From positions 434,001 to 498,000 of the forward strand of contig NW_024881590.1 of the NCBI RefSeq assembly GCF_019059575.1: a DNA stretch of 64,000 nt. The letters are read 5' to 3'. Position numbers and translations under genes: made by a program. Positions 6,334 to 44,346 of the stretch are shown piece by piece. Source of the stretch: Amphibalanus amphitrite (Eukaryota; Arthropoda; Thecostraca; Balanomorpha; Balanidae). Numbering within the stretch: the first letter of the stretch is position 1; each line of letters opens with the position of its first letter. The notes below the pieces were generated by a model, which saw only the letters and a program-made list of their open reading frames with translations, was not told where the DNA came from and ran no database searches.

Positions 6334-9113
6334 TTAAAGGGACCCTCCCACCTTCAAAAAAGTTAATGAATTGGCATAAAAGTGATGTAGCGTGAATCAC
6401 AAAGAGCGAAAATGAACATCTACCAAATTTTACCGGAAAATATTCAACCGTTTTCGAGATATAAGACTTTTATTTTTGTTTACTTTTTGGGAACTACGCT
6501 GTTTCTATGACGTCACATAAAGGTTTTATTTACGTCGGCATTTGGAAGCAATAATTTGGTATCAAAGTGCGACAAATATTGCGCGAATGATGCGTTTATC
6601 TTATCAAGGTCAATATATGATGGCCAACAAAGGATTCCAGGACAATTCTTCTTATGGCATTTTTTCGTATCGCAATTCTTCGTCTGCAAATCTTCGTCAG
6701 GGCATTTATTCGTATCGCATTACTTTGTCTCGCATCAGGGTATATGAAAATCGGCTCGCATTTCTTCTTCAACGCAAATATATGCAAGAGTAAGCATTGA
6801 TGGACAAATAAATGCACCGACGAAGATTTGTAGACGAAGAAATGCGGACGAAGAAATGTCATGCGAGGACTCGTTCGTGTACCATGACATTTATGTGATT
6901 TCAAAGTCAAGGTTCACAGCTGATCTGCTAAATCAAGCCAAGAATCCAAACTATCAAAAAACTATAAATATTTGTTTGTCTGTCACAGAGGTCTCAAGCA
7001 ATATAAGGTTGACATATGTTGAATCAAAAATCTACTGCCACAACTCACATCTCCTGCCTTAGTTTATCATTGTTGTTTTAACTTGCTTTCAAGAGAAACA
7101 GAAGCCAGTATCTGATATCACTTCACATGATTGTTTCAAGATCTGAGTTCAAATGGAATTAAAAGCAAGATCAAGATGAAACAGGGATTATTGCTGTTAA
7201 AGTAGTTTGGCCATGATACAACAGGCACATAAATCATTAGCCAAATCAAATACTGGTTGGTTTGTCAAGATGTTTGTTGTCTGTCGTCTGTCGAGCTGCT
7301 ATGAACACTGAACGCTCTCACTCTTACTTTAAAGAGAGTAGTTTAAGTTGAATGGTAGTGAGCTGTAATTAGACAAAGCAGCTATTCAGTGCTCACATCA
7401 AGCCAGGCTAGGAAATGGCATCAACTGTGGTGGGAGGAAGCAGGTTCGGCAGGCCTATGTTGTAAACTTCTGTTTTGTCTTGTGTTTGATCAACTGATGT
7501 TTTCTGCTCTGTTTTGTGCAGTGATAGTAGCAGGTAACTGCATGCTTGTCAAATTATGTGAATAAACGAATTCATAACATTGCATTTTTCTCTCCATGCA
7601 AGGAACAAGTAAGATGTTGTAGAAAATGTAATAGAGGGCTGCATTGCTGATTTCATGCACTTTATCAGAGCTTTATTTAGAATTGCTTTCCTGAAAGCTA
7701 CACACATGACACAGGCCACAGCACTGAAATTCACAATGTCATAGCTTTTGGCAGAAAAAAAGAAGACTTGCCTAGGTAAAATTGGCTGAAAGTATGGCAG
7801 AGCAGGTCTTGATGCGTATGCCCAATGCCCATCCGTGTGCTTGCCGAAGCCGAACTGACTGCAACACATTAACTCTGACCCACCATGGTGGCTGGCATAT
7901 CCTGAACTTTCACCACTCTAAACAAGACAACTTTCAGTCCTCAGCATTGTATTAAAACACTGTACATGGCAGTTGACACTCAAAATTTGTTTCAGTGCCA
8001 TCCACGGACAACATCAGTCGCCATTCACCAGGCCAGTAAAAACAGAATAGATAATAGCTTCAAACCCATGTAGAGTTACTAGGTCTGCACCTCAAAACAA
8101 AATCCAGGTGACATTCACCACGCCAGTAAAAAAACAGGTAGGTACTTAGGTAACGTAACAGCTTCAAATCTGGTAACATGTTGGTCGGACTTAACACTAC
8201 CATATGTACATGGAATAATATGATACCAAACAATAGTGCAACCATTCTGGACAACAAAAGTGTATGATAAAATTAATTTAGAATACTTTGTCAGCATGAT
8301 TTACGAGCACAGGCAGGTGTTACCTACCAGCCTTCTCAATGCTCGTAAAACCAACATTGTAGTTTTGATTTTACCTTACATGATAACACACTTGGCTGCA
8401 ATGGCACATTTAATTTAACACTGTGAAAAGACCAGTTATAACCACATCACAAGCACAATTGCACCTCATGCCGACATCCTTTTCCAAAGACAGTCAGCAG
8501 CGTCTTTCGTCAAAACTGGAAGATCAATCCCCTTTCAACTGTTAACATCAAAAATATTTCGTCATGGTGTGATCTCCTATGGAAACCTTGCGGGAAAAGA
8601 ATTAATGTCAATTGTCAGCTCTTCAAATTTCTTTGGACTTAAACTTGCAGTACCATATCCAGTTTGCTTTGATATTTTGTTTTTCATTCCATGTTGAAGT
8701 TGAACACCAAGCTCCAGATATAGCAGGCAGCTTGATCATCTTCGGCCTTGGTATAATATCAGTCCAAGTTCCAGTGGTGGGTATCTTCTAATATTCAAAT
8801 TAAAATGAAAAGCAATAGGCTTTCTCAGCGCCGACGACGGATTTCACGTTGATAAAAAAGGGAGCTCAAGGTCAGCAAAACTCGGGTTCAAGGAATGGCG
8901 GGCGTTGAAATGACTGCTGACGTCATCAACAAACCGCTAATGGTTAAGAGATAGGGACTAAGCTGGTCCCACCCTGCAAGTAAAGGGAAGAAATTTCTTG
9001 AACACCATAAAGCTGCGGGGGTTGCGACCAGGATAAATGGTGGTTTCTGAGCCTGGCCGCAAACTTGGCTATCTCAACTCAAAACTAATGTTAAGGTGGG
9101 ATGGTCCCTTTAA
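6334..9113. mobile_element. TTAA-bounded DNA transposon with inverted ends, nested in the mariner-like element
   Basis: The left end TTAAAGGGACCCTCCCACCT at 6334 and the right end (its inverted copy, one mismatch) finishing in TTAA at 9113 bound a 2.78-kb segment. TTAA at both edges is the piggyBac-type target duplication, although the duplication could also be part of the inverted ends. No transposase frame is visible. The left third holds a patch of inverted short repeats (6640-6870); the rest is unique AT-rich DNA. Removing it restores the mariner-like element around one TTAA. Confidence 0.6.
6640..6870. repeat. Cluster of short direct and inverted TCTTCGTC / GACGAAGA repeats
   Basis: The left half repeats words such as TTCTTCGTCTGCAAATCTTCG and ATTCGTATCGCA; the right half (6815-6870) carries the inverted form, such as CGACGAAGATTTGTAGACGA. 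The two halves could fold back on each other. It lies within the TTAA-bounded element and may be an internal satellite or an older small foldback element. Confidence 0.5.
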
Positions 9114-9302: not shown

Positions 9303-9592
9303 GTCAATATCATCTCTTCCTCCGTTTACGTCTGTTCGATACACACTACTTTCAGCCATTTGATGGAGCATAATTAGAGTATTGGCACGCATGTGCGCGC
9401 GGACTAAGTTGATAGTGGCTTGCTTAAGCCCACGTTCTGTGACCAGCCGACTCAAAATTGCAACGCAACCTGCATAACATGGAAACGTATTCATTAGCCT
9501 ATATTTATGTTCAAAAATTATCTTTATCACTCAAAAAATAGTCGTTTTAGAGGAAGTTAAAATTTGTCCCAATTTATCTGCCAAACCCTGTA

Positions 9593-12260
9593 TAGGAAAC
9601 ATTTTGTAAGTTTTCTTTTAGGTTCTTCTTTGTCTCCGCTTTATTGCACTTTGATCACGATCTTTGATCTTGTTCGGCGCTTATCTTTGGACAGCACGCT
9701 GCAGTGCTGCACTCCAAGGCTCACGGTAACCATGGGTCATATCATAGTGTATCATATTCCTCCAAGAGTAGAGTCCAAAATCACCCGTACTACACACTAT
9801 GCAGCCGCCGACCTCTGCCCGGCCAGCTCGGGCCTCTCCATCGATTTAACCTAACCCGTGACATTTGGGACCGTCTGCGCTTGCGTTGGCGAGGAGCGGC
9901 GAGGCCTCTGCGCCGTCGTACCCAATGACCCCCAGGCTGTCCGCGAGAGGCCAGATCTGGCTAATTGCCAGCTAGTAACTTCCCCCTACCCCGACCAGGG
10001 CCTCGGCCTGTCGGGAGCAAAATTCAAAAAAAAAAGCATTCCATGGGCACACCCTGGCGCCGCACAAGGCCAGTGGCGGGCCGCGGATGGGTCGGCGCGA
10101 CACCCCTCGGGGGAGTGAGGGGGTGTCAGAGCTGGCCAGACTTGCTTTTGGCGCCCACCCTATACCGGTCCTCCATGGCCGTCCTAAAATACTCGGCCAG
10201 TGAGACGATGCTGGCCGGTGCGGCTGCACCTGACAACCCCGTCCGCCAGACCCCCCCCCCCCGCGGCGATCACGCCACCCGACCGGGCCAGACGCCAGTG
10301 GGCCCATGACCCGGGGGATTAGGGGCAGGGTACGGGACATCAAGCGTGCGGTAGTTATATCATTAAACACGACTGTTGAGTGAAAGTGACTTATGAATAT
10401 CGGTGCACCCATGCAGCACTAGCTGTATATCGGCAGCCCGTAAACGTGCCACGGTGTGATGCAAGGGTCCATTCTGGCTGCATCACTTTATATTTACTTA
10501 GCTGAAAGAGTTCCGTTGTCGTAATGTGCCCGTTGTCGTAATGTGCTGAAATGGAACTGCTGAATTTGTTGGCGCTCTGTTGTTGATCAGGTGCCTGATA
10601 CCTAACTGTGTGATGGGGCGCTCGCTCGAATCTAAAGACCACCGAGCCCCTACAAGAGCCTTTCGTTTCATTTCGATGCCTAAGCACTAAAGCAGTATTG
10701 TTAAAAATGTTGTCACTTCATTTAGGGCGCACTTAGTTAAATTATCATCAAGTTCGACTTAGTTCGGAGGGGTGCACAAATTTCCCCAACTTCTTCACCA
10801 CATCCATACGGCACGTCACATTAGTGGGACACATTTCCTCGCAAATTTCCATAGACGTCAGACATTCCAGCCAGTTCATGGCCCGTAGTTCTCCGTCGAC
10901 AGCGGCACCCATCTGCCCATGACCGCGGCTGCGGCTCTGCTGTCCTGGGCCTGGGGCGGTCGGCAACAGGTCCGCTGCCCGGCCGGCCAAGGTCAGGGCC
11001 CGGTCGGCCGGTCAGGCGGACGACTCCGTCCGCGTGGCCGCTCCTTCCCGGCCAGGAATGATGGCTGGGGGCGGGTGGGAGAGGTCGGAAGCCTGGCAGC
11101 GTGAGCACACGTTTTCCTCGTATCCGTCGGAGCCGAGGTTGGGGCCGCATCATTCACCAAATACCTCGCGAGCGACGTGTAGACGGTCACTTGGTCTTGC
11201 AATCCGGTCACCTTCCTGAGCCCGATCTTGTCTGTCTCTCCGTCTGTCTATACCTCGGGAAAACTCGGCGATCCGTCGAACGGTCTAGCTATACTTATCT
11301 GCTCCATGGCCGTAGTCACTGCCTCCGTGCTTCCGTCGTTCCCTGTTCTGCACTACGACCGTGGCCGCGGCTCTCCGGCTGATGCAATCCGAGCTACGCA
11401 CTTGACACTGTTCCATTCGCAAGTTGGCGGCCTGTCGGCGTGTGCGTACGGAAGGAACGGCCCAGCTCTGGCTGATGCAATTCTGTAGTAGTTTGGCGGC
11501 CGTCGCTCCGTGCCACGTGGCTGTGGGGGCTGGTCCGCCGAGCTGCCTGGCTGCTCCTTCGCTTCGCCGTGCTGTGGGGGCCGGTCCGCTGATGTGCGGG
11601 GGCCGGTCGGAGCTACGCGGGAGGGACCAGTGGCGTCGTTCCGTGCAGCGCCAGTAGCCTTGACCCAGATGGGTCTGCAGGACTACTGTAGGCGGCTTTG
11701 CTTTCGCTGCAATCTGCGTTGCCTGCTCGGATCCCGAGTCTATCACTGACGGGCTGACGAAATATCCTGTGTGTACGTTTTGGGGTCATTCGACGGGGCG
11801 GGTGGTTGGCCCGTGTTGTGTTCAGTGATCGAGCTACTGTTTCGTTGGCATGTTTGTGCGGTGAGCGGGAATTCAATACCCTCTCATACACCGGAGTCAC
11901 ATGCCAAACGCAAGCTGTGTGAAACTGAATAGCCAGTGGGGCGTCACCACAATGCCTGCTCAGTACCGCTTAGTCCTGACCAAGAGCCTGACGAGAGGTC
12001 GCAAACAACGTGGTAAATAAAAACGCAACCATACACGAGAAGCGGGACGCTCGTTCCCACGGTTCTGAGCCATAGCCTTAGCCATCATCAACAACCGCCG
12101 GATCTGACCTGACCCATAACTCCCTCTCGTGCCGATGGACCTTCCCTTCAGTCCTCTATATCGTCTCTCGCTTTAGTCACATTGCGCCCCAGGGCACCAG
12201 ACTAAACACGTCCACTTGGTAACGGTGGAATTTTTGGGCCCTGTTACACAACAGCCTGCA
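9593..12260. other. Intergenic, GC-rich blocks without a recognised gene
   Basis: Two GC-rich blocks, about 9840-10310 and 10750-11760, have long overlapping frames on both strands, with low-complexity Pro/Arg/Gly/Ala translations and no recognisable domain. The first ends near an AT-rich boundary at 10330-10370 and contains a run of A (10026-10036) and a run of C (10251-10262). These may be decayed retroelement pieces or CpG-rich regulatory DNA. I could not support an exon here. Confidence 0.35.
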
Positions 12261-15200
12261 ACTGTAAAAAAAACTTACAAGCCCCTCGTATAGAGGAATT
12301 CTCAGCGCAAAAATAACATTGCAGGAGCGTGTAAATTTGGCTAATTTTAGGCTAGTTGCCGAGTAACAAGCTTGTTCGACAAGGCTGTGCCTCGTATGCA
12401 TACGACCACCGTGCTCCACCTAGTTTGACAACACGCACGTAAATAGCGTGGGTAGTGCGTCTACTAGGTGTCATAACAGCCCCTGCCTGGTAAGGTAACT
12501 AGCCACTGCCTACTAATCGATACCCAGTAATGGTACTAGCCCCCAAGGCTAGTAATGGTACTAGCTCAAGGCCAGTAGTGGCACTAGTTAACTAGTACCA
12601 CTACTGGCCTTCGGGGTCGAGGCACGGTCGACGGAATTCCGTCGACCAGTGCCCCCGACTCTCGACCGCCACCCGCAAGTAAACAGACTGAGTAGCGCTG
12701 CAGCACATTTATTCGGGCACGAGAACGAGAACGAGAACAATAACAACGCCAGGACAATAACTATAACTTTAACAACAACAACAACAACAACAACAACTAA
12801 ATGAATAATTTTCAATAAGGTTTATTAAATAACCACCATCAAACATTTGTGATTTTTTCATTAGCTCTGCACCGGCGGCAGTCGCGGGGTGCAGGTAGGC
12901 CAGGACCAGGGGGGTACGCTCCGGCTGTTAAGCATTATGAAAAATGGTGACAGACGTTTGTGGAGGATTGTCGACGAACTCTTGTTCCGTGAGCAGTACT
13001 TACACGCTAGCGGAAAATTCACCAATCAGCGCTCGGTGGTACTCGACGCTGATTGGTCCGACGCTCGTGACGAAATTGCGGGGGACCGCAGTTATTCTCT
13101 ATGGACCCAAATAGGCTTTTGGATTTCGGAGGGGTTTCTTTAAAATTATATGCTGTTTCGAGCTGTTTTCGAGTTGAAATATATTTCTTATGACTGTTAC
13201 CTATATAATGGCACCATAAAATCATGATTTTGATAAATATTACCGATGAAATATCGGCCGAAAAGACATGCTGTCATGGTACGGAGACGGACTGCCCTGC
13301 GGCTGATGTGGGGTCCCTAGTGCCAGCGTATGGTAATAATGGGTTGACGAAGGGTTATTGGAGAGTCTTAGAGCCCCATCAGCATTCAGTATAGGGTCAT
13401 CAGAGGCCGGGAACGTCCATCAGGGGTCTGAGTAGGCCTGTCGGCTGTCATAGGGGCATACATGACACATCATGGCCCATGGGTCAATATAGATCCATGG
13501 GGCCGTTGAAGGGCCATCATTGTTCAGCGTGGGCTCGCAATTACCTCTGATGGGCATATGCCGTGCCCCGATGGACTAACGCTGGCCCCTGATGAACCAT
13601 CACCAGCCCCTGATAGGTCTACAAAGCCCACTGCTGGGTCGAAATTGGTCACTGATATGCCCAAATGGGCCACTGAGAAACCCGTACAACATCCCCTGAC
13701 TGCACCTGCTGGACCAGTGCCGTCCTCTCATGGGCCCACCACAGCTCTTGAATGACCTTTTCAAGTCCCTTGAAGTGCCTTTATTGGCCTAAATGGCCCC
13801 TGATTGGCTTATGTGGTCCCTATCGGTCGACCGATAGCCCTCCCCATGAGCCCTCAACGTCCCTAGACGGCCTTACATTATATGTCACTGGGCCCTGTTG
13901 GGTCAGCACCGGCCCCTGATAGGCTTGCACTGGACCCACCGGGCCTATACCGACCCATGAAGGGCCTATGTCGAGCCCTCAAAGGGCCTTCGATGACCAC
14001 ACGCCGGCATGTGTGGCCCCATCAGCAGTGGTCCGTCTATCCCATGTACTTACGATCTTTTTGGTCGATGTGACACCGCTAGTATATAGAAATGTTATGA
14101 TTAAATGTCGTTATTACACAGTCAAAAGTCACAGAAAGAATATCCAAGCTCAAAAATGGCCTCAAACCCAACATAAACTGGTATAAATCCCCTTCAAAAG
14201 CCGTAAGTCTATTAAACGCCATAGGGAAATAGCTGCAGTCCCCCGCAATTTCGTCACGAGCATCGGGCCAATCAGCGTTGAGTATTGCCGAACGCTGATT
14301 GGTCGATTTCCGCTAGCCTGTAAATGCTGCTTGCGGATATAGTTTTGAACAAAAGAGGGTCGCGGCTACTAATTATCGCTTGTCACCACTTTTTCGTCGG
14401 GAGCGTTCTACCTGGTTTATATAGCCTTGGCCAGGACATACATGGCCCCATTCTTCAAAGTCTGTAATGGGTGAAAAAAACGAATATTAACATTATTATT
14501 ATCATAAGGCATACCAATCTGGAAAATGATTAAATTAAAGTTGAATAAAGTGATAGATTCCTGCCACAAGCTAGCTTAAGTCCCAAACATATAGCTATTC
14601 TGACTTGGATAGACGATACCGGCGCACTTCTGCCAACGACGGGCAACATTATGCGATACTATACATCTTCTAAGAAGCTCAACAACATAATAACCTTTGT
14701 TTACAAATGGACAACCTTTTTGTTGAGCACACAGCAAATGATACAAGATGCCTCACCTTCAATCAAGCCAAAGAGCAGTTGGGCAGACACACACAGCAAT
14801 GGCGACGCAACACAAAATGGACGCCGACTCCCGGAAGCGGGGGGGGGGGGGACTCCTTCTGAAAGCAGCCACAGACTCCTAGGTTGTAACATGCGACGAG
14901 GATAGCTATGAGGCACATCCTCATAGCCATCCGAAGCCGCTTACCACGCAAGCTTGCCAGCACGTTTACCAGCTGCAGGCGTTCGTGACAACAAGCGGGG
15001 TTGCACGCAAGGTTATCCGTTTAGTAGGTGCCAGCCGGGGCCTCGTCAGCTGAGCTAATAGCGAAATGACCTAATTGAGGGACACGCTAAAAACTGGGCG
15101 AGAACAAGCCAACGGCGGGTAACACTGTGAGGCTGTGCGTAGTTCATTAACACTGCGCAAAATTAGTTTCCTGAACATGTTCTCGCTCGTAGGTATTTGT

Positions 15201-15330
15201 TCCACAAGCGGCATTGTTAACGTGCATGGCTCTGACTACTAATGTCCATATATGTTGTAACGAGGAGCAAGGGAGGCACTCGTAAAAAATGCCTAATTTC
15301 AAAATTAGCTAGTGAATTTTTTTTACAGTG
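12261..15330 (-). mobile_element. Array element copy 1 (TA-type, CACTGTAAAA ends), interrupted
   Basis: First copy of the ~1.6-kb repeat family that fills 12-27 kb. It lies in reverse orientation: its right end (ACTGTAAAAA then CTTACAAGCCCCTCG) is at 12261, and its left end finishes in TTTTACAGTG at 15330. The first base of the right terminus is altered (CAACTGT instead of CACTGT). It is split by a 1.5-kb insertion at 12907-14428. Relative to other copies it has an extra TA in the CCTCGTAGAGG motif near 12288. Its ends lack a clear TA duplication. Confidence 0.75.
12898..14437. mobile_element. Nested element with 9-bp target duplication (Mutator-like?)
   Basis: GGCCAGGAC at 12898-12906 is repeated exactly at 14429-14437; other array copies have one GGCCAGGAC in that place, which shows this is an insertion with a 9-bp duplication. 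The 1522-bp insert has long imperfect inverted ends: the segment with TGATTGG/CCAATCA and ACGAAATTGCGGGGGAC near 13020-13090 is mirrored at 14240-14310. The centre (13270-14060) is built from degenerate GGCCCCTGAT/GATGGGCC words. A 9-bp duplication and long inverted ends fit Mutator-like elements, but no transposase is present. Confidence 0.65.
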
Positions 15331-15865
15331 TGTGACATAACCACGACAACTTTTTGTCCGAATGTCTGGGGACGGCAGTCGGCAAAGTTTTTGTGGTTTC
15401 CGTTCGCCGAAATATTCCACTCGATGAATCTGTTGCTCTAAGGTAAAAACGATGCCACCTCTTATGCCCTGAACGCTGAGTGCAACTAATTTTCAATAAG
15501 AGCAATACAAATTATAAAAACGTTGAAACAAGCATATAGGAAATCAGTATTCTCACATTAGGTATAGGTATGGAATTAAGATAGGATGCAGCTCCACACG
15601 GTGGATTGTCAAATGCCAAGTGAATGATAAACCCCTGCACACCCAGCGGCTGGCTACTGAAGCTGGCCCCGTTCCCAGTGCCATGTGGTCCGCTGCTCCG
15701 CTGCAGGACATGATGAAATATAAACACGGCAGAGTTTTTGCTTCTTTATTATTTAGCGGCCCAGATGCGTTGCCAATCCCTAATGTAATCCTGGCCTCTT
15801 ATATAACAGTTTGTTTTGCAGACCCCTGCCTCATGTCAGTTGTCGGGAAAAACATGGCGCCATAA
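15331..15865. other. Spacer between array copies 1 and 2
   Basis: About 530 bp of unique sequence between two array elements. No gene, RNA or repeat is recognisable. It contains two adjoining TAGGTA words near 15560. Confidence 0.4.
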
Positions 15866-16244
15866 CACTGTAAAAAATATTCACTAGCTAATTTTGAAAT
15901 TAGGCATTTTTTACGAGTGCCTCCCTTGCTCCTCGTTACAACATATATGGACATTAGTAGTCAGAGCCATGCACGTTAACAATGCCGCTTGTGGAACAAA
16001 TGCCTACGAGCGAGAACATGTTCAGGAACCTAATTTTGCGCAGTGTTAATGAACTACGCACAGCCTCACAGTGTTACCCGCCGTTGGCTTGTTCTCGGCC
16101 AGTTTTTAGCGTGTCCCTCAATTAGGTCATTTCGCTGTTAGCTCAGCTGACGAGGCCCCGGCTGGCACCTACTAAACGGATAACCTTGCGTGCAACCCCG
16201 CTTGTTGTCACGAACGCCTGCAGCTGGTAAACGTGCTGGCAATT

Positions 16245-17835
16245 CACTGTAAAAAAAACTTACAAGCCCCTCGTAGAGGAATTCTCAGCGCAAAAATAAC
16301 ATTGCAGGAGCGTGTAAATTTGGCTAATTTTAGGCTAGTTGCCGAGTAACAAGCTTGTTCGACAAGGCTGTGCCTCGTATGCATACGACCACCGTGCTCC
16401 ACCTAGTTTGACAACACGCACGTAAATAGCGTGGGTAGTGCGTCTACTAGGTGTCATAACAGCCCCTGCCTGGTAAGGTAACTAGCCACTGCCTACTAAT
16501 CCATACCCAGTAATGGTACTAGCCCCCAAGGCTAGTAATGGTACTAGCATTCCGTCGACGGAATTCCGTCGACCGTGCCTCGACCCCGAAGACCAGTAGT
16601 GGCACTATTTAACTAGTACCACTACTGGTCTTCGGGGTCGAGGCACGGTCGACGGAATTCCGTCGACGGAATTCCGTCGACCAGTGCCCCCGACTCTCGA
16701 CCGCCACCCGCAAGTATAAACAGACTGAGTAGCGCTGCAGCACATTTATTCGGGCACGAGAACGAGAACGAGAACAATAACAACGCCAGGACAATAACTA
16801 TAACTTTAACAACAACAACAACAACAACAACTAACTGAATAATTTTCAATAAGGTTTCTTAAATAACCACCATCAAACATTTGTGATTTTTTCATTAGCT
16901 CTGCACCGGCGGCAGTCGCGGGGTGCAGGTAGGCCAGGACATACATGGCCCCATTCTTCACCAGAGAAGTCTGTAATGGGTGAAAAAACGAATATTAGCA
17001 TTATTATTATCATAAGGCATACCAATCTGGAAAATGATTAAATTAAAGTTGAATAAAGTGATAGATTCCTGCCACAAGCTAGCTTAAGTCCCAAACATAT
17101 AGCTATTCTGACTTGGATAGACGATACCGGCGCACTTCTGCCAACGACGGGCAACATTATGCGATACTATACATCTTCTAAGAAGCTCAACACCATAATA
17201 ACTTTTGTTTACAAATGGACAACCTTTTTGTTGAGCACACAGCAAATGATACAAGATGCCTCACCTTCAATCAAGCCAAAGAGCAGTTGGGCAGACACAC
17301 ACAGCAATGGCGACGCAACACAAAATGGACGCCGGCTCCCGGAAGCGGGGGGGGGGACTCCTTCTGAAAGCAGCCACAGACTCCTAGGTTGTAACATGCG
17401 ACGAGGATAGCTATGAGGCACATCCTCATAGCCATCCGAAGCCGCTTACCACGCAAGCTTGCCAGCACGTTTACCAGCTGCAGGCGTTCGTGACAACAAG
17501 CGGGGTTGCACGCAAGGTTATCCGTTTAGTAGGTGCCAGCCGGGGCCTCGTCAGCTGAGCTAATAGCGAAATGACCTAATTGAGGGACACGCTAAAAACT
17601 GGCCGAGAACAAGCCAACGGCGGGTAACACTGTGAGGCTGTGCGTAGTTCATTAACACTGCGCAAAATTAGGTTCCTGAACATGTTCTCGCTCGTAGGCA
17701 TTTGTTCCACAAGCGGCATTGTTAACGTGCATGGCTCTGACTACTAATGTCCATATATGTTGTAACGAGGAGCAAGGGAGGCACTCGTAAAAAATGCCTA
17801 ATTTCAAAATTAGCTAGTGAATATTTTTTACAGTG
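16245..17835 (-). mobile_element. Array element copy 3, inside copy 2
   Basis: Complete 1591-bp copy in reverse orientation, from CACTGTAAAA (right end) at 16245 to ACAGTG (left end) at 17835. It interrupts copy 2 at the sequence CTGGCAAGCTTG. The flanks (TT on the left, AA on the right) are not a clean TA duplication, so the junction has been altered or this copy did not use TA. Confidence 0.85.
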
Positions 17836-18468
17836 AAGCTTGCGTGGTAAGCGGCTTCGGATGGCTATGAGGATGTGCCTCATAGCTATCCTCGTCGCAT
17901 GTTACAACCTAGGAGTCTGTGGCTGCTTTCAGAAGGAGTCCCCCCCCCCGCTTCCGGGAGCCGGCGTCCATTTTGTGTTGCGTCGCCATTGCTGTGTGTG
18001 TCTGCCCAACTGCTCTTTGGCTTGATTGAAGGTGAGGCATCTTGTATCATTTACTGTGTGCTCAACAAAAAGGTTGTCCATTTGTAAACAAAAGTTATTA
18101 TGTTGTTGAGCTTCTTAGAAGATGTATAGTATCGCATAATGTTGCCCGTCGTTGGCAGAAGTGCGCCGGTATCGTCTATCCAAGTCAGAATAGCTATATG
18201 TTTGGGACTTGAGCTAGCTTGTGGCAGGAATCTATCACTTTATTCGACTTTAATTTAATCATTTTCCAGATTGGTATGCCTTATGATAATAATAATGTTA
18301 ATATTCGTTTTTTTTCACCCATTACAGACTTCTCTGGTGAAGAATGGGGCCATGTATGTCCTGGCCTTACCTGCACCCCGCGACTGCCGCCGGTGCAGAG
18401 CTAATGAAAAAATCACAAATGTTTGATGGTGGTTATTTAAGAAACCTTATTGAAAATTATTCAGTTAG

Positions 18469-18521
<53 letters not shown>

Positions 18522-18599
18522 AAAGTTATAGTTATTGTCCTGGCGTTGTTATTGTTCTCGTTCTCGTTCTCGTGCCCGAATAAATGTGTTGCAGCGCTA

Positions 18600-19604
18600 C
18601 ACTGTAAAAAATATTCACTAGCTAATTTTGAAATTAGGCATTTTTTACGAGTGCCTCCCTTGCTCCTTGTTACAACATATATGGACATTAGTAGTCAGAG
18701 CCATGCACGTTAACAATGCCGCTTGTGGAACAAATGCCTACGAGCGAGAACATGTTCAGGAACCTAATTTTGCGCAGTGTTAATGAACTACGCACAGCCT
18801 CACAGTGTTACCCGCCGTTGGCTTGTTCTCGGCCAGTTTTTAGCGTGTCCCTCAATTAGGTCATTTCGCTATTAGCTCAGCTGACGAGGCCCCGGCTGGC
18901 ACCTACTAAACGGATAACCTTGCGTGCAACCCCGCTTGTTGTCACGAACGCCTGCAGCTGGTAAACGTGCTGGCAAGCTTGCGTGGTAAGCGGCTTCGGA
19001 TGGCTATGAGGATGTGCCTCATAGCTATCCTCGTCGCATGTTACAACCTAGGAGTCTGTGGCTGCTTTCAGAAGGAGTCCCCCCCCCCGCTTCCGGGAGC
19101 CGGCGTCCATTTTGTGTTGCGTCGCCATTGCTGTGTGTGTCTGCCCAACTGCTCTTTGGCTTGATTGAAGGTGAGGCATCTTGTATCATTTGCTGTGTGC
19201 TCAACAAAAAGGTTGTCCATTTGTAAACAAAAGTTATTATGTTGTTGAGCTTCTTAGAAGATGTATAGTATCGCATAATGTTGCCCGTCGTTGGCAGAAG
19301 TGCGCCGGTATCGTCTATCCAAGTCAGAATAGCTATATGTTTGGGACTTAAGCTAGCTTGTGGCAGGAATCTATCACTTTATTCAACTTTAATTTAATCA
19401 TTTTCCAGATTGGTATGCCTTATGATAATAATAATGTTAATATTCGTTTTTTCACCCATTACAGACTTCTCTGGTGAAGAATGGGGCCATGTATGTCCTG
19501 GCCTACCTGCACCCCGCGACTGCCGCCGGTGCAGAGCTAATGAAAAAATCACAAATGTTTGATGGTGGTTATTTAAGAAACCTTATTGAAAATTATTCAG
19601 TTAG

Positions 19605-19636
<32 letters not shown>

Positions 19637-20197
19637 AAAGTTATAGTTATTGTCCTGGCGTTGTTATTGTTCTCGTTCTCGTTCTCGTGCCCGAATAAAT
19701 GTGCTGCAGCGCTACTCAGTCTGTTTACTTGCGGGTGGCGGTCGAGAGTCGGGGGCACTGGTCGACGGAATTCCGTCGACGGAATTCCGTCGACCGTGCC
19801 TCGACCCCGAAGACCAGTAGTGGTACTAGTTAAATAGTGCCACTACTGGTCTTCGGGGTCGAGGCACGGTCGACGGAATTCCGTCGACGGAATGCTAGTA
19901 CCATTATTAGCCTTGGGGGCTAGTACCATTACTGGGTATGGATTAGTAGGCAGTGGCTAGTTACCTTACCAGGCAGGGGCTGTTATGACACCTAGTAGAC
20001 GCACTACCCACGCTATTTACGTGCGTGTTGTCAAACTAGGTGGAGCACGGTGGTCGTATGCATACGAGGCACAGCCTTGTCGAACAAGCTTGTTACTCGG
20101 CAACTAGCCTAAAATTAGCCAAATTTACACGCTCCTGCAATGTTATTTTTGCGCTGAGAATTCCTCTACGAGGGGCTTGTAAGTTTTTTTTACAGTG
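18600..20197 (+). mobile_element. Array element copy 4, inside copy 2, with TA duplication
   Basis: Complete 1598-bp copy. The flanks read GCGCTA before CACTGT and TACTCAG after ACAGTG; the unbroken sequence in other copies is GCGCTACTCAG. This shows directly that the family inserts at TA and duplicates it, as Tc1/mariner-type elements do. Internal order: left terminus, GC-rich block, AT-rich block, last-exon-like cassette, (TTG)n, AATAAA, SalI/EcoRI-type palindromes, right terminus. Confidence 0.9.
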
Positions 20198-20686
20198 TAC
20201 TCAGTCTGTTTACTTGCGGGTGGCGGTCGAGAGTCGGGGGCACTGGTCGACGGAATTCCGTCGACGGAATTCCGTCGACCGTGCCTCGACCCCGAAGACC
20301 AGTAGTGGTACTAGTTAACTAGAGCCACTACTGGTCTTCGGGGTCGAGGCACGGTCGACGGAATTCCGTCGACGGAATGCTAGTACCATTACTAGCCTTG
20401 GGGGCTAGTACCATTACTGGGTATGGATTAGTAGGCAGTGGCTAGTTACCTTACCAGGCAGTGGCTGTTATGACACCTAGTAGACGCACTACCCACGCTA
20501 TTTACGTGCGTGTTGTCAAACTAGGTGGAGCACGGTGGTCGTATGCATACGAGGCACAGCCTTGTCGAACAAGCTTGTTACTCGGCAACTAGCCTAAAAT
20601 TAGCCAAATTTACACGCTCCTGCAATGTTATTTTTGCGCTGAGAATTCCTCTACGAGGGGCTTGTAAGTTTTTTTTTTACAGTGTA

Positions 20687-21699
20687 CACTGTAAAAAAAA
20701 ATCACTAGCTAATTTTGAAATTAGGCATTTTTTACGAGTGCCTCCCTTGCACCTCGTTACAACATATATGGACATTAGTAGTCAGAGCCATGCACGTTAA
20801 CAATGCCCGTTGTGGAACAAATGCCTACGAGCGAGAGCATGTTCAGGAACCTAATTTTGCGCAGTGTTAATGAACTACGCACAGCCTCACAGTGTTACCC
20901 GCCGTTGGCTTGTTCTCGGCCAGTTTTTGGCGTGTCCCTCAATTAGGTCATTTTGCTATCAGCTCAGCTGACGAGGCCCCGGCTGGCACCTACTAAACGG
21001 ATAACCTTGCGTGCAACCCCGCTTGTTGTCACGAACGCCTGCAGCTGGTAAACGTGCTGGTAAGCTTGCGTGGTAAGCGGCTTCGGATGGCTATGAGGAT
21101 GTGCCTCATAGCTATCCTCGTCGCATGTTACAACCTAGGAGTCTGTGGCTGCTTTTAGAAGGAGTCCCCCCCCCCGCATCCGGGAGCCGGCGTCCATTTT
21201 GTGTTGCGTCGCCATTACTGTGTGTGTCTGCCCAACTGCTCTTTGGCTTGATTGAAGGTGAGGCATCTTGTATCATTTGCTGTGTGCTCAACAAAAAGGT
21301 TGTCCATTTGTAAACAAAAGTTATTATGTTGTTGAGCTTCTTAGAAGATGTATAGTATCGCATAATGCTGCCCGTCGTTGGCAGAAGTGCGCCGGTATCG
21401 TCTATCCAAGTCAGAATAGCTATATGTTTGGGACTTACGCTAGCTTGTGGCAGGAGTATATCACTTTATTCAACTTTAATTTAATCATTTTCCAGATTGG
21501 TATGCCTTATGATAATAATAATGTTAATATTGTTTTTTTTTCACCCATTACAGACTCCTCTGGTAAAGAATGGGGCCATGTACCTACATATGTCCTGGCC
21601 TACCTTCAGCCCGCGACTGCCGCCGGTGCAGAGCTAATGAAAAATCAAAATGTTTGATTGTGGTTATTTAAGAAACCTGATTGCAAATTATTCAGTTAG

Positions 21700-21737
<38 letters not shown>

Positions 21738-22264
21738 AAAGTTATAGTTACTGTCCTGGCGCTGTTATTGTTCTCGTTCTCATTCTCGTGCCCGAATAAA
21801 ATGTGCTGCAGCGCTACTCAGTCTGTTTACTTGCGGGTGGCGGTCGAGAGTCGGGGGCACTGGGTTGACGGAATTCCGTCAACGGAATTCCGTCGACCAG
21901 TGCCCCCGACCCCGAAGGCCAGTAGTGGTACTAGTTAACTAGTGCCACTACTGGCCTTGAGCTAGTACCACTACTAGCCTTGGGGGCTAGTACAATTACT
22001 GGGTATGGATTAGTAGGCAGTGGCTAGTTACCTTACCAGGCAGGGGCTATTATGACACCTAGTAGACGCACTACCCACGCTATTTACGTGCGTGTTGTCA
22101 AACTAGGTGGAGCACGGTGGTCGTATGCATACGAGGCACAGCCTTGTCGAACAAGCTTGTTACTCGGCAACTAGCCTAAAATTAGCCAAATTTACACGCT
22201 CCTGCAATGTTATTTTTGCGCTGAGAATTCCTCTACGAGGGGCTTGTAAGTTTTTTTTACAGTG
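20687..22264 (+). mobile_element. Array element copy 5, with TA duplication
   Basis: Complete 1578-bp copy directly following copy 2 (TA at 20685-20686) and followed by TA at 22265-22266. It shares many private base changes with copy 6 and forms an inverted pair with it. It carries a 4-bp CCTA insertion after GGCCATGTA near 21582, absent from copy 6. Confidence 0.9.
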
Positions 22265-22404
22265 TAGTGTGGCCCCACCCAAGGCCCCACCTGCGTAGCA
22301 TCAGCGTCCCATGCCCTCGATCCCCTCTCCCCGTTATTGACCCGGAGATCGAGCTGAGGTGACAGGGTCTATATTAGTGGCTGGTGAATTTCCGTCCCCA
22401 AATG
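22265..22404. other. Spacer of the inverted pair copy 5 / copy 6
   Basis: About 140 bp of unique, rather GC-rich sequence between two oppositely oriented copies. No feature is recognised. Confidence 0.4.
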
Positions 22405-22914
22405 CACTGTAAAAAAACTTACAAGCCCCTCGTAGAGGAATTCTCAGCGCAAAAATAACATTGCAGGAGCGTGTAAATTTGGCTAATTTTAGGCTAGTTG
22501 CCGAGTAACAAGCTTGTTCGACAGGGCTGTGCCTCGTATGCATACGACCACCGTGCTCCACCTAGTTTGACAACACGCACGTAAATAGCGTGGGTAGTGC
22601 GTCTACTAGGTGTCATAATAGCCCCTGCCTGGTAAGGTAACTAGCCACTGCCTACTAATCCATACCCAGTAATTGTACTAGCCCCCAAGGCTAGTAGTGG
22701 TACTAGCTCAAGGCCAGTAGTGGCACTAGTTAACTAGTACCACTACTGGCCTTCGGGGTCGGGGGCACTGGTCGACGGAATTCCGTCAACCAGTGCCCCC
22801 GACTCTCGACCGCCACCCGCAAGTAAACAGACTGAGTAGCGCTGCAGCACATTTATTCGGGCACGAGAACGAGAACGAGAACAATAACAACGCCAGGAAA
22901 ATAACTATAACTTT

Positions 22915-22950
<36 letters not shown>

Positions 22951-23963
22951 TAACTGAATAATTTGCAATCAGGTTTCTTAAATAACCACAATCAAACATT
23001 TGTGATTTTTCATTAGCACTGCACCGGCGGCAGTCGCGGGGTGAAGGTAGGCCGGGACATATGTACATGGCCCCATTCTTTACTGCAGAGAAGTCTGTAA
23101 TGGGTGAAAAAAAAAACAATATTAACATTATTATTATCATAAGGCATACCAATCTGGAAAATGATTAAATTAAAGTTGAATAAAGTGATATATTCCTGCC
23201 ACAAGCTAACGTAAGTCCCAATCATATAGCTATTCTGACTTGGATAGACGATACCGGCGCACTTCTGCCAACGACGGGCAACATTATGCGATACTATACA
23301 TCTTCTATGAAGCTCAACAACATAAAAACTTTTGTTTACAAATGGACAAACTTTTTGTTGAGCACACAGCAAATGATACAAGATGCCTCACCTTCAATCA
23401 AGCCAAAGAGCAGTTGGGCAGACACACACAGTAATGGCGACGCAACACAAAATGGACGCCGGCCCCCGGATGCGGGGGGGGGGACTCCTTCTGAAAGCAG
23501 CCACAGACTCCTAGGTTGTAACATGCGACGAGGATAGCTATGAGGCACATCCTCATAGCCATCCGAAGCCGCTTACCACGCAAGCTTACCAGCACGTTTA
23601 CCAGCTGCAGGCGTTCGTGACAACAAGCGGGGTTGCACGCAAGGTTATCCGTTTAGTAGGTGCCAGCCGGGGCCTCGTCAGCTGAGCTAATAGCAAAATG
23701 ACCTAATTGAGGGACACGCCAAAAACTGACCGAGAACAAGCCCACGGCGGGTAACACTGTGAGGCTGTGCGTAGTTCATTAACATTGCGCAAAATTAGGT
23801 TCCTGAACATGCTCTCGCTCGTAGGCATTTGTTCCACAAAGGGCATTGTTAACGTGCATGGCTCTGACTACTAATGTCCATATATGTTGTAACGAGGTGC
23901 AAGGGAGGCACTCGTAAAAAATGCCTAATTTCAAAATTAGCTAGTGAATTTTTTTTTACAGTG
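22405..23963 (-). mobile_element. Array element copy 6
   Basis: Complete 1559-bp reverse copy from CACTGTAAAA at 22405 to ACAGTG at 23963, bordered by TG on both sides. It shares diagnostic changes with copy 5 (for example CCGGATGCGGG in the C-run region, CACGCCAAAAACTG, CTGATTGCAAATTA read on the other strand), so the two diverged recently from one subfamily. Together they make an inverted repeat of about 1.56-kb arms. Confidence 0.9.
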
Positions 23964-23972
23964 TGCGTGCAA

Positions 23973-24979
23973 CACTGTAAAAAATATTCACTAGCTAATT
24001 TTGAAATTAGGCATTTTTTACGAGTGCCTCCCTTGCTCCTCGTTACAACATATATGGACATTAGTAGTCAGAGCCATGCACGTTAACAATGCCGCTTGTG
24101 GAACAAATGCCTACGAGCGAGAACATGTTCAGGAACCTAATTTTGCGCAGTGTTAATGAACTACGCACAGCCTCACAGTGTTACCCGCCGTTGGCTTGTT
24201 CTCGGCCAGTTTTTAGCGTGTCCCTCAATTAGGTCATTTCGCTATTAGCTCAGCTGACGAGGCCCCGGCTGGCACCTACTAAACGGATAACCTTGCGTGC
24301 AACCCCGCTTGTTGTCACGAACGCCTGCAGCTGGTAAACGTGCTGGCAAGCTTGCGTGGTAAGCGGCTTCGGATGGCTATGAGGATGTGCCTCATAGCTA
24401 TCCTCGTCGCATGTTACAACCTAGGAGTCTGTGGCTGCTTTCAGAAGGAGTCCCCCCCCCCCCGCTTCCGGGAGCCGGCGTCCATTTTGTGTTGCGTCGC
24501 CATTGCTGTGTGTGTCTGCCCAACTGCTCTTTGGCTTGATTGAAGGTGAGGCATCTTGTATCATTTGCTGTGTGCTCAACAAAAAGGTTGTCCATTTGTA
24601 AACAAAAGTTATTATGTTGTTGAGCTTCTTAGAAGATGTATAGTATCGCATAATGTTGCCCGTCGTTGGCAGAAGTGCGCCGGTATCGTCTATCCAAGTC
24701 AGAATAGCTATATGTTTGGGACTTAAGCTAGCTTGTGGCAGGAATCTATCACTTTATTCAACTTTAATTTAATCATTTTCCAGATTGGTATGCCTTATGA
24801 TAATAATAATGTTAATATTCGTTTTTTCACCCATTACAGACTTCTCTGGTGAAGAATGGGGCCATGTATGTCCTGGCCTACCTGCACCCCGCGACTGCCG
24901 CCGGTGCAGAGCTAATGAAAAAATCACAAATGTTTGATGGTGGTTATTTAAGAAACCTTATTGAAAATTATTCAGTTAG

Positions 24980-25035
<56 letters not shown>

Positions 25036-25597
25036 AAAGTTATAGTTATTGTCCTGGCGTTGTTATTGTTCTCGTTCTCGTTCTCGTGCCCGAATAAATG
25101 TGCTGCAGCGCTACTCAGTCTGTTTACTTGCGGGTGGCGGTCGAGAGTCGGGGGCACTGGTCGACGGAATTCCGTCGACGGAATTCCGTCGACCGTGCCT
25201 CGACCCCGAAGACCAGTAGTGGTACTAGTTAAATAGTGCCACTACTGGTCTTCGGGGTCGAGGCACGGTCGACGGAATTCCGTCGACGGAATGCTAGTAC
25301 CATTACTAGCCTTGGGGGCTAGTACCATTACTGGGTATGGATTAGTAGGCAGTGGCTAGTTACCTTACCAGGCAGGGGCTGTTATGACACCTAGTAGACG
25401 CACTACCCACGCTATTTACGTGCGTGTTGTCAAACTCGGTGGAGCACGGTGGTCGTATGCATACGAGGCACAGCCTTGTCGAACAAGCTTGTTACTCGGC
25501 AACTAGCCTAAAATTAGCCAAATTTACACGCTCCTGCAATGTTATTTTTGCGCTGAGAATTCCTCTACGAGGGGCTTGTAAGTTTTTTTTTACAGTG
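23973..25597 (+). mobile_element. Array element copy 7
   Basis: Complete 1625-bp forward copy, longest because of its long (TTG)n tract (about 24980-25035). It is bordered by AA on both sides. The 9 bp between copies 6 and 7 (TGCGTGCAA) also occur inside the element (CCTTGCGTGCAACCC), so copy 7 may have entered the remnant of yet another copy. Confidence 0.9.
24837..25098 (+). other. Last-exon-like cassette inside the array element
   Basis: In copy 7 a pyrimidine tract ends in TTACAG at 24834-24839. An open frame follows that reads TSLVKNGAMYVLAYLHPAT, continues through a segment ending LIENYSVS, runs into a poly-Cys stretch encoded by the (TTG)n repeat and stops at TAA (25035-25037). An AATAAA lies at 25093-25098. 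The same order occurs in copies 4 and 5, and with a frameshift in copy 2. The protein is not recognised. It may be a captured 3' exon or chance. Confidence 0.35.
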
Positions 25598-25757
25598 AAC
25601 TCTGGATTAGAGGCGTCGCAACCGGTCACTTCTAGAACTATCCATGATAGAGGTCAGAAAAACTATTCCTCAAATTATTATATTTTAAAGATATACCTAA
25701 TTCATAATATAGATTGGAGCTTGCCATTGATTACGATGACATCTTTCTTTCCATCTA
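25598..25757. other. Spacer of the inverted pair copy 7 / copy 8
   Basis: About 160 bp of AT-rich unique DNA between oppositely oriented copies. It is unrelated to the spacer between copies 5 and 6. Confidence 0.4.
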
Positions 25758-26224
25758 CACTGTAAAAAAAACTTACAAGCCCCTCGTAGAGGAATTCTCA
25801 GCGCAAAAATAACATTGCAGGAGCGTGTAAATTTGGCTAATTTTAGGCTAGTTGCCGAGTAACAAGCTTGTTCGACAAGGCTGTGCCTCGTATGCATACG
25901 ACCACCGTGCTCCACCTAGTTTGACAACACGCACGTAAATAGCGTGGGTAGTGCGTCTACTAGGTGTCATAACAGCCCCTGCCTGGTAAGGTAACCAGCC
26001 ACTGCCTACTAATCCATACCCAGTAATGGTACTAGCCCCCAAGGCTAGTAATGGTACTAGCATTCCGTCGACGGAATTCCGTCGACGGAATTCCGTCGAC
26101 CAGTGCCCCCGACTCTCGACCGCCACCCGCAAGTAAACAGACTGAGTAGCGCTGCAGCACATTTATTCGGGCACGAGAACGAGAACGAGAACAATAACAA
26201 CGCCAGGACAATAACTATAACTTT

Positions 26225-26268
<44 letters not shown>

Positions 26269-27284
26269 CTAACTGAATAATTTTCAATAAGGTTTCTTAA
26301 ATAACCACCATCAAACATTTGTGATTTTTTCATTAGCTCTGCACCGGCGGCAGTCGCGGGGTGCAGGTAGGCCAGGACATACATGGCCCCATTCTTCACC
26401 AGAGAAGTCTGTAATGGGTGAAAAAACGAATATTAACATTATTATTATCATAAGGCATAGGTACCAATCTGGAAAATGATTAAATTAAAGTTGAATAAAG
26501 TGATAGATTCCTGCCACAAGCTAGCTTACCTAAGTCCCAAACATATAGCTATTCTGACTTGGATAGACGATACCGGCGCACTTCTGCCAACGACGGGCAA
26601 CATTATGCGATACTATACATCTTCTAAGAAGCTCAACAACATAATAACTTTTGTTTACAAATGGACAACCTTTTTGTTGAGCACACAGCAAATGATGCAA
26701 GATGCCTCACCTTCAATCAAGCCAAAGAGCAGTTGGGCAGACACACACAGCAATGGCGACGCAACACAAAATGGACGCCGGCTCCCGGAAGCGGGGGGGG
26801 GGGGGACTCCTTCTGAAAGCAGCCACAGACTCCTAGGTTGTAACATGCGACGAGGATAGCTATGAGGCACATCCTCATAGCCATCCGAAGCCGCTTACCA
26901 CGCAAGCTTGCCAGCACGTTTACCAGCTGCAGGCGTTCGTGACAACAAGCGGGGTTGCACGCAAGGTTATCCGTTTAGTAGGTGCCAGCCGGGGCCTCGT
27001 CAGCTGAGCTAATAGCGAAATGACCTAATTGAGGGACACGCTAAAAACTGGCCGAGAACAAGCCAACGGCGGGTAACACTGTGAGGCTGTGCGTAGTTCA
27101 TTAACACTGCGCAAAATTAGGTTCCTGAACATGTTCTCGCTCGTAGGCATTTGTTCCACAAGCGGCATTGTTAACGTGCATGGCTCTGACTACTAATGTC
27201 CATATATGTTGTAACGAGGAGCAAGGGAGGCACTCGTAAAAAATGCCTAATTTCAAAATTAGCTAGTGAATATTTTTTACAGTG
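25758..27284 (-). mobile_element. Array element copy 8, with TA duplication and two 4-bp TAGGTA-type insertions
   Basis: Complete 1527-bp reverse copy, bordered by TA on both sides (25756-25757 and 27285-27286). Two 4-bp insertions set it apart from the other copies: GGCATACCAATC has become GGCATAGGTACCAATC (26455-26466), and AGCTTAAGTCCC has become AGCTTACCTAAGTCCC (26522-26537). It lacks one of the long palindromic segments found in copies 4 and 7. Confidence 0.9.
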
Positions 27285-41251: not shown

Positions 41252-42772
41252 GACCTACTATGCGTTTCAGACCCTGTGGAACAGTCCTTTTCGGCTATTT
41301 CCCGTTGTATATACGTTTGATTTTAACCAAACTTTGGCATTGGTAGTTTGAGTTCCCTACCTAATTTTTATCAATATGGTCTATTAACAAAAAATGAAAA
41401 GTAAAGGCACTTGTCATTGACTGATAATGTTAAGCTCGTCAGATCCCTGCTTAGAGGCTGTCACAGGCTGGGCGCTGTCTCCCCTCTGATTGGTCGTGAC
41501 ACACTAGCACACTGCGGCTTGACTCCGCCCACTTGCAGTCCAGCCTCGGGTCATGTCGGCGGCAGTCGCAGTCGCCGCGCGCGCGGCGCAGAGAAGTCGG
41601 AGCACTTGCTTGCATGTCATGAACTTTTAATAAGTTGTTCTACGCAAATAAGGACGGAGGAAGAAAGAGAAAGGAAGAGGAGACAAAGTGACAGTGAGAC
41701 GAGCGCCCGGTAAACGTTGGCTAGTGGACAACAAACAATATGCATAAACGCTAGAGCAGAGACAGGAGACAAAGACGGTAGACGAAAGACAGACTTAAAG
41801 ATGGTAGACCAGAGACAAGTGACGAAGATAGATATTAGGCTATAGACGAGAGACAATAGACTATAAACCTATAGACGAGAGACTGACAAGGGGGAGTGAA
41901 GGATGGGAGATCATTAACTCTCGATATTGCATATCTACATTTTCAGATTGAGTCAATCTATATCGTTCCCTGTTTTATTGTTTTTTCGGGCCTAAGATCT
42001 ATCAACAATATTCTTAAAGTATTTTGGAAATGTCATGGAAAGATTTACCTATTATTTTCACCCAAAAAATCATCCAACTTTATTCTTTTAAACTAAAAAA
42101 AAAAAAACGAAATACCTACCAATACCTACATATGTGGATATCCTCAATTAAATAAGGCCGTTGAATGCAAGACAGTCCGATAAATTCTGTCCCGTTACTC
42201 TTTAAATGCACAATAGCCTGCGGAAGACGGCTGCGGTGAGGCTCGCCATAAATTATTGAAAAAAATTTATTTAAAGTCTGTAGGGAATAACATTATGTAG
42301 CTAGAAGGAGTGCTTATCGTTTTATACATACGCCGATCTGCATTGCATTCTTCATCCTTATTCTCTCCGCGCGACCGCCCGCGAGATACGACATATATTC
42401 ACGCAAGGATATGTGTGTGTGTCTCGTTCCAGTCCGTCAGAGCTCCGCACCGCTCTGACCCCGAGCGGCGAATGACCGGTCCCGGTGTCGCGGCGCAGTG
42501 GGCGGAGCTTAGCTGCGGCGCAACAGCTGACGCTGCTACGCCGTGCTAGCCTCTACCACGGCACAAAGTTTTCCGATCAATTTTTACCATTACAAGTCAA
42601 TGACAAGTGCCTTTCATTTTGACATTTTGTTAAAAGACCATTTTAGTAAAAATTAGGTAGGCCCTTGAAACTCATTGTGTCAAAGTTTGGTTGCAATTAA
42701 GCGCATAGGTAACGAGAAAAAGCCAAAAAGGACTGTTCCAGAGCGTCTGAAATGCGTAGTAGGTCATTCGAC
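41252..42772. mobile_element. Foldback element with ~175-bp inverted ends
   Basis: The segment 41262-41425 (CCTACTATGCGTTTCAGAC, then GGAACAGTCCTTTT, AACCAAACTTTG, CTACCTAATTTTTA and AAGGCACTTGTCATTGACT in order) is mirrored at about 42595-42765 at roughly 80% identity by eye. Weaker similarity (CTCCGCCCACT on one side, its mirror on the other) extends inward. The centre holds GAGAC/AGAGAC-rich repeats (41640-41890) and AT-rich DNA. No transposase is visible. Long inverted ends suggest a Foldback or Mutator-like element. Confidence 0.6.

Positions 42773-43300: not shown

Positions 43301-44346
<1,046 letters not shown>

Follow-up and report, generated by a model that had tools for sequence, protein, structure and literature searches.

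Four-base insertions at TA sites and an excess of TAGGTA in the barnacle Amphibalanus amphitrite: probable footprints of TA-targeting DNA transposons

Why have copies of a single repeated element in the barnacle Amphibalanus amphitrite gained four bases at a TA, turning it into TAGGTA or its reverse complement TACCTA, and why does the same word recur in the DNA around them? We addressed this question in a 64-kb stretch of the genome (C93:434001–498000, in an 807.6-Mb assembly of 2,644 contigs; hereafter, the window), in which 12.2–27.3 kb (12261–27284) is a nest of copies of one ~1.5–1.6 kb element (hereafter, the array element), inserted into one another in both orientations. Scars of TA-targeting transposons, mainly of elements whose ends begin with GG, are probably the main cause of both the insertions and the excess of the word. 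The small gains observed in the array copies are as follows (window coordinates; L numbers denote loci elsewhere in the assembly).

26458–26463, plus strand: TAGGTA, a 4-bp gain in copy 8; the other seven covering copies have TA (copy alignment and direct reading)
26527–26532, minus strand: TACCTA, a 4-bp gain in copy 8; TA in six covering copies and CA in copy 3 (alignment and direct reading)
21581–21586, minus strand: TACCTA, a 4-bp gain in copy 5; missing from its sister copy 6 and from six further copies (alignment)
23060–23065, plus strand: TATGTA in copy 6, common to copy 5 (21585–21590, other strand); TA in six others; TG instead of GG
12289–12292, plus strand: TATA, a 2-bp gain at a TA in copy 1; this TA is occupied by other copies of the element in L006, L011 and L023
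16715–16718, plus strand: TATA, a 2-bp gain at a TA in copy 2, common to L019 and L021

Each of the three TAGGTA/TACCTA insertions is private to a single copy, indicating that they are gains; deletion from the other copies was ruled out by the copy alignment, and the longer form is thus not ancestral. The original prediction of three independent insertions, two in copy 8 and one in copy 5 that sister copy 6 lacks, was borne out in position and in the absence from copy 6, although the copy-8 pair, 69 bases apart, is possibly not independent. All four resolved 4-bp indels among the window copies converted TA to TA-NN-TA (GG/CC in three, TG in one), and both 2-bp gains converted TA to TATA, so that every one of these six changes, as would be expected of a footprint, lies at a TA and leaves two. 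The remaining indels were homopolymer, AAC-repeat and 14-bp-unit changes and scattered changes of 1, 2 and 6 bp; gaps were listed throughout except in a complex block (columns 308–409) and the AAC repeat, which were not split into single events, and the non-aligning parts of copy 1 were omitted. For random 4-bp inserts, the probability that at least three of four fall in the TAGG word class is ~1e-4, a post hoc figure that treats the copy-8 pair as independent. Copy 8 carries two private substitutions beside its two insertions, and all window-copy rows together hold 55 private substitutions and 24 common to copies 5 and 6.

The word itself is far more frequent than expected. The window contains 75 TAGGTA words (either orientation) where 21.4 are expected, and none of 100 shuffles reached 75. 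With the array and two microsatellites removed (masked window, 50.8 kb left), 71 words remain against 16.7 expected from the word halves and against a mean of 20.9 and a maximum of 38 in 100 third-order simulations; the strands are balanced (36 and 35), and the excess is present in each of the four window parts outside the array. We further counted the word in 20 ten-kb pieces from 20 other contigs (200 kb in total), where it occurs 133 times against 46.5 expected (3 to 13 words per piece) and ranks sixth by z among 6-mers. One piece, L031, carries telomere-like and TAGGTTTG-type tandem repeats, and counts for 19 pieces are those made without it. Of the 4-mers expected more than 3 times after TA in the window, the seven with the highest ratios (GGTA, CCTA, CTTA, AGTA, TGTA, CATA and CGTA) all end in TA; in the sample, GGTA is again first, followed by GGTT and TGTA/CATA. 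Over 249.5 kb of pooled sequence, two-base spacers between TAs are raised for GG/CC (204 versus 62.6), CA/TG (157 versus 76.3) and AG/CT (85 versus 44.4), one-base spacers show no excess and three-base spacers little; the corresponding two-base counts in the 19 pieces are 121 versus 54, 111 versus 61.5 and 55 versus 38, and the TA-NN-TA words other than TAGGTA (CA/TG, AG/CT) are raised 1.4- to 2.1-fold. The earlier impression that the word recurs in AT-rich DNA, often in runs, was right as to the excess and the existence of runs (listed below from a word scan) and wrong as to their share, most words being isolated.

1123–1136, minus strand: chain TACCTACCTACCTA
1583–1592, no single strand: mixed-orientation chain TAGGTACCTA
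1644–1653, no single strand: mixed-orientation chain TACCTAGGTA
8139–8152, plus strand: chain TAGGTACTTAGGTA

Elements with the matching ends were found by scanning sampled sequence for TA-flanked inverted ends.

L035:4667–5842: GG-ended element of 1,176 bp, ends GGGGAGAGTGGGGTAAGATGCCC directly after TA, TA on both sides
L043:7027–8232: GG-ended element, GGGGA(A/G)AGTGGG ends, TA on both sides
L039: GG-ended element, one GGGGA(A/G)AGTGGG end only

All four GGGGA(A/G)AGTGGG ends in the sampled DNA lie directly after TA. Genome-wide, the exact 23-nt end GGGGARAGTGGGGTAAGATGCCC occurs at 1,000 places (reversed control, 0), 987 of which follow TA, and 7,155 places (reversed control, 3) have TA followed by GGGGARAGTGGGG, which is the first 13 bases of the end. 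Many ends among the first 100 places listed pair in inverted orientation at ~0.9–1.25 kb, as non-autonomous copies would. The TA-flanked GG-ended elements that the original prediction had supposed therefore exist (L035 and L043), and they show TA target-site duplication. The extra bases in the gains and spacers correspond to terminal bases of elements in this genome—GG to the GGGGARAGTGGGG ends, and CA to two TA-flanked CA-ended elements, L050:7086–8442 (CAGGGTGTCCCATAAGTT directly after TA) and the array element itself. An inverted repeat in the window (41258–42759) with CTA ends after TA would fit the AG/CT spacer class, an agreement to which we give little weight.

Transposase frames are abundant in the assembly. 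The best 150 of 891 candidate matches to DDE_3 (PF13358) were scored, many of them intact and including equal-score sets with intact frames of 411 and 444 residues; DDE_1 (PF03184) gave 100 matches of 111 candidates, and for DDE_Tnp_4 (PF13359) the best 150 of 372 candidates were scored. DDE_3 and DDE_1 belong to TA-inserting superfamilies. Some DDE_3 frames form head-to-head pairs, with both frames open, on opposite strands and ~100 bases from each other (C1363:121862–122875, C363:544517–545530 and others), which may represent a palindromic copy or an element whose two transposase frames face each other. The 444-residue DDE_3 element (L051) showed no terminal repeat within the stretch examined.

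In the mechanism that we favour, the 4-bp gains and the TAGGTA/TACCTA excess would both be excision footprints of cut-and-paste DNA transposons with a TA target, which is duplicated on insertion. In excision of the Tc1 type, the cut in the non-transferred strand falls within the element; a few terminal bases stay on each flank, and one set is kept between two TAs. Here the transposase would leave two terminal element bases on each flank and repair would keep one pair, such that an element beginning with GG would convert TA to TA-GG-TA or TA-CC-TA, and other ends would convert it to TA-CA-TA or TA-CT-TA. The main source would be the very abundant element group with GGGGARAGTGGGG ends after TA. 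All pieces of this mechanism have been seen except the excision of a GG-ended element; that GG-ended elements excise, leave two bases and thereby account for most of the excess is what we infer from the other pieces.

The array element provides a TA in three states. Its copies end in CACTGTAAAA...TTTTACAGTG (CACTG...CAGTG) and are bordered by 2-bp duplications: several are flanked by TA, others by AA or TG. Elsewhere, the two flanks of some copies differ, for example, TT/AA or TA/AT. Copies 2, 4, 7 and 8 diverge by 0.2–0.3%, copies 5 and 6 are 1.9% apart and each is ~3% from the remaining copies.

Array copy 8, 25758–27284, plus strand: CACTGTAAAA...TTTTACAGTG ends, TA on both sides
Array copy 5, 20687–22264, minus strand: same element, TA-flanked
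Array copy 6, 22405–23963, plus strand: same element, TG-flanked
Array copy 4, 18600–20197, minus strand: sits at a TA inside an older copy (GCGC-TA-CTCAG), that TA being duplicated

Self-insertion sites were found by looking up copy flanks inside the sequence of the array element. TA 31–32 of the element is occupied by another copy in L006, L011 and L023 (both flanks) and in L003 and L028 (one flank each), empty in six window copies and doubled to TATA in copy 1; the TATA could also be a dinucleotide slip. A second self-occupied TA lies at 485–486 (copy 4), and L016 and L028 carry a gain of GCCT directly 3′ of it. Two small gains, GCCT at 485–486 and TATA at 31–32, are thus located at TAs that the array family itself targets.

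Several observations weigh against transposon scars as the main cause. A genome search for the array element (40 matches scored of 140 candidates) gave 30 loci, 4 of which are window copies, and an alignment of 34 rows (26 outside loci, L008 and L020 being partial, and 8 rows for six window copies, with copies 4 and 7 entered twice) revealed no further TAGGTA gain in the 26 outside copies. Their 4-bp changes were the GCCT gain (L016, L028), which is not of TA-NN-TA form and does not leave two TAs, a GGGG change in a G run and a loss of TGCA. The predicted pattern of 4-bp indels held in the window copies only, and a high rate therefore cannot be established from the array by itself. In the copies examined, no element occupies any of the three TAs with a GG/CC gain. 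For the GG-ended elements, we found no single place that combines an element, an empty site and a TAGGTA scar, and the one occupied site tested (L035) lies in unique DNA with no second copy and no empty site. The proposal that the insertions are footprints of a TA-targeting transposon with CC/GG ends is therefore upheld as to thousands of TA-flanked GG ends and stays circumstantial as to excision, no excision of a GG-ended element having been found. In three diverged repeat pairs, none of 14 TANNTA words stands opposite a gap, and the three unshared TACCTA words stand opposite substitutions; two of the pairs together have 15 gaps, none of them of TA-NN-TA form, and the third pair is gap-free. 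Nor, by eye, did any of the listed DDE_3, DDE_1 and DDE_Tnp_4 matches fall within the GG-ended pairs that the first 100 listed places include. The excess of ~87 words per 200 kb, scaled to 807 Mb, corresponds to ~350,000 words against ~7,000 visible GG ends, an approximately fifty-fold shortfall that would require prolonged, recurrent excision, families that have diverged or disappeared, or an additional origin for the word.

The word statistics hold points of the same kind. TA spacings of 4 and 6 in the 19 pieces are raised 1.45- and 1.46-fold, nearly like the spacing of 2 (1.53-fold), which indicates that it is the composition of the spacer and not the spacing peak that is special in the sample. 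The related words GTAGGT (140 versus 77), GGTAGG (128 versus 67) and TAGGTT (99 versus 45; 69 versus 41 without L031) are also raised in the sample, at lower ratios (1.7- to 2.2-fold) than TAGGTA (2.9-fold). Among the 14 close word pairs in the window (~2 expected), 12 have the same orientation and GGTAGGTA outnumbers GGTACCTA (21 versus 6), which is not what scars should give; in the 19 pieces this lean is weak or gone (10 close pairs same, 7 opposite; flanks 19 versus 14, near symmetric). Four TAGGTA words lie within 75 bases of the GG-ended insertion at L035, whereas the insertions at L043 and L039 have none so near, and we therefore make no claim on proximity.

The alternative that survives best, and that we still regard as unlikely, is slippage at TAGG microsatellites, in which short seeds gain and lose 4-bp units and TAGGTA is one and a half units. 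Some chains have a single orientation, GGTAGGTA is common in the window, and the sample holds 1.8 and 1.9 times the expected number of the rotations GTAGGT and GGTAGG, respectively, suggesting that slippage contributes a share. However, slippage treats the four phases alike, whereas period-4 runs ending in GGTA number 58 in the window against 16.3 expected (3.6-fold) and those in the other phases (TAGG, AGGT and GTAG) 12–18 against 16–20 (30 simulations). The 19 pieces have 96 GGTA-ending runs against 40.2 (2.4-fold) and 39–69 against 51–59 in the other phases (40 simulations); with L031 kept, the GGTA phase has 104 and the AGGT phase 89. As only the GGTA phase is raised, slippage is not the main cause, and the excess of the word exceeds both chance and plain slippage. 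Furthermore, the gains in the array do not copy adjacent bases, and the mixed chains TAGGTACCTA and TACCTAGGTA exist, one each outside the array.

Slightly less credible is end joining of the polymerase-theta type, with TA as the microhomology and a nearby GGTA copied as a templated insert. TACC adjoins one insertion and lies ~15 bases from another, the copy-8 gains are near each other and the window words are clustered in close pairs, all as templated repair might leave them. End joining predicts inserts of varied length, whereas spacers of one base show no excess and those of three hardly any, and no template was seen by eye within ~20 bases of the gain at 26527.

It is very improbable that telomerase or a relative put TAGG units on broken TA ends, the telomere-like repair that the original prediction had offered as its second possibility and that the results do not support. 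TTAGG is the telomere motif in most arthropods. In the window, TA is fixed on the right-hand edge while matches on the left are graded, an asymmetry that hinted at templated addition, and the excess of TAGGTT in the 19 pieces (69 versus 41) leans towards telomere-like addition; however, the asymmetry was down-weighted because the 19 other pieces do not repeat it, the masked window has 70 TTAGG against 86 expected, no TTAGGTTAGG and no excess of TAGG without the closing TA, and the 19 pieces have one TTAGGTTAGG and 77 TTAGGT against 70. Scarcely credible to the same degree is the idea that TAGGTA, instead of being a scar, is under selection as a DNA-binding site or splice-like word; its rise across the whole sample would agree with this, but the array copies acquired the word by insertion, other dinucleotides before GGTA are hardly raised in the window (highest TT, 33 versus 23.6; CA, 27 versus 26.4) and both strands are equal (36 and 35).

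Transposon scars, the explanation that we prefer, have partial counterparts among known systems. Tc1 ends are of the CAGT type, from which the GG end described here differs, and the ISL2EU group has a TA target. The passages on footprints in two Tc1/mariner papers give lengths of 2–4 bp (PMC7913693) and, for Passer, of 0–4 bp with a TA target within AAGTACTT (PMC9976928). Our proposed scars resemble these in the TA target, its duplication and the few terminal bases between the TAs; unlike the plasmid footprint tests described in those passages, the two-base scar here would rank with the most over-represented 6-mers in the sampled DNA. In rice, too, small sequence changes arise generally from DNA transposon excision (PMC4423477); there, excision sites were located by comparing two genomes, whereas we relied on word excess and copy alignments in one genome. 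A table in the same paper gives Harbinger elements GG(G/C)CC ends and a TAA/TTA target. The GG-rich ends and the abundance of DDE_Tnp_4 transposases in the barnacle are similar to PIF/Harbinger as described there, in contrast to the target (TAA/TTA there, TA here) and to the lack of any listed DDE_Tnp_4 match in a listed GG-ended pair.

It is possible, though we would stop short of calling it probable, that two-base TA scars are a leading small-insertion process in this genome, that the scars offer further TA targets and that TAGGTA/TACCTA, together with TACATA and TACTTA from other families, form a genome-wide signature that outlasts the elements. If so, word statistics from a single assembly would show which TA-targeting transposons have excised and what their terminal bases are, providing a fossil record of excision that is invisible to counts of inserted copies. 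The end of a transposon would then dictate an insertion mutation that is common in an animal genome and that supplies it with short indels and fresh TA targets. Among the top-ranked results of a literature search, no title or abstract opening dealt with a genome-wide TAGGTA excess or with this terminal sequence.

Protein-coding frames in the window match Pfam RLL and F420_oxidored, consistent with animal DNA; we read the former as RTRAF and the latter as a STEAP-like protein. Three window frames had no match in Pfam, against which ten further window frames were also run, an Rfam search of the window returned nothing at the gathering score, and a 27-base word from the array element was absent from viral and prokaryote collections. 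Two candidates were rejected: a Tc1/mariner transposase in the window, sought by short motifs, gave one chance hit across a stop, and a long GG-ended pair (C1:1217306–1219401), considered as a complete element, has a middle (L052) with no frame above 96 residues that resembles the piggyBac-like repeats of the window.

Other repeats were observed alongside. A perfect (AT)75 tract of 150 bases lies at 43562–43711 of the window. Piece L031 has ~135-bp-spaced repeats at 6580–8921 and 9350–9890, which also paired in inverted orientation in the scan for TA-flanked ends and adjoin GGTTAGGTTGTAGG-type, telomere-like repeats, and L039:1600–3430 is a near-perfect long inverted repeat spanning ~1.8 kb. 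A ~340-bp repeat at window positions 58463–58800, with TAGAGTTGCAAAG ends and an 8-bp duplication (CAAGGAAT), is presumably hAT-like, judging from its ends. Four window repeats (52241–53426, 56343–57546, 61746–62944 and 60090–61097) contain 12–21 copies each of AGGTCA, which we take to be the nuclear-receptor half-site; the first three have CCCGCG ends after TTAA, which we assume to be a piggyBac-like target and ends. A transposon family spreading AGGTCA could matter for gene regulation, and the motif occurs 122 times in the window and 463 times, against 116 expected, in the 200-kb sample.

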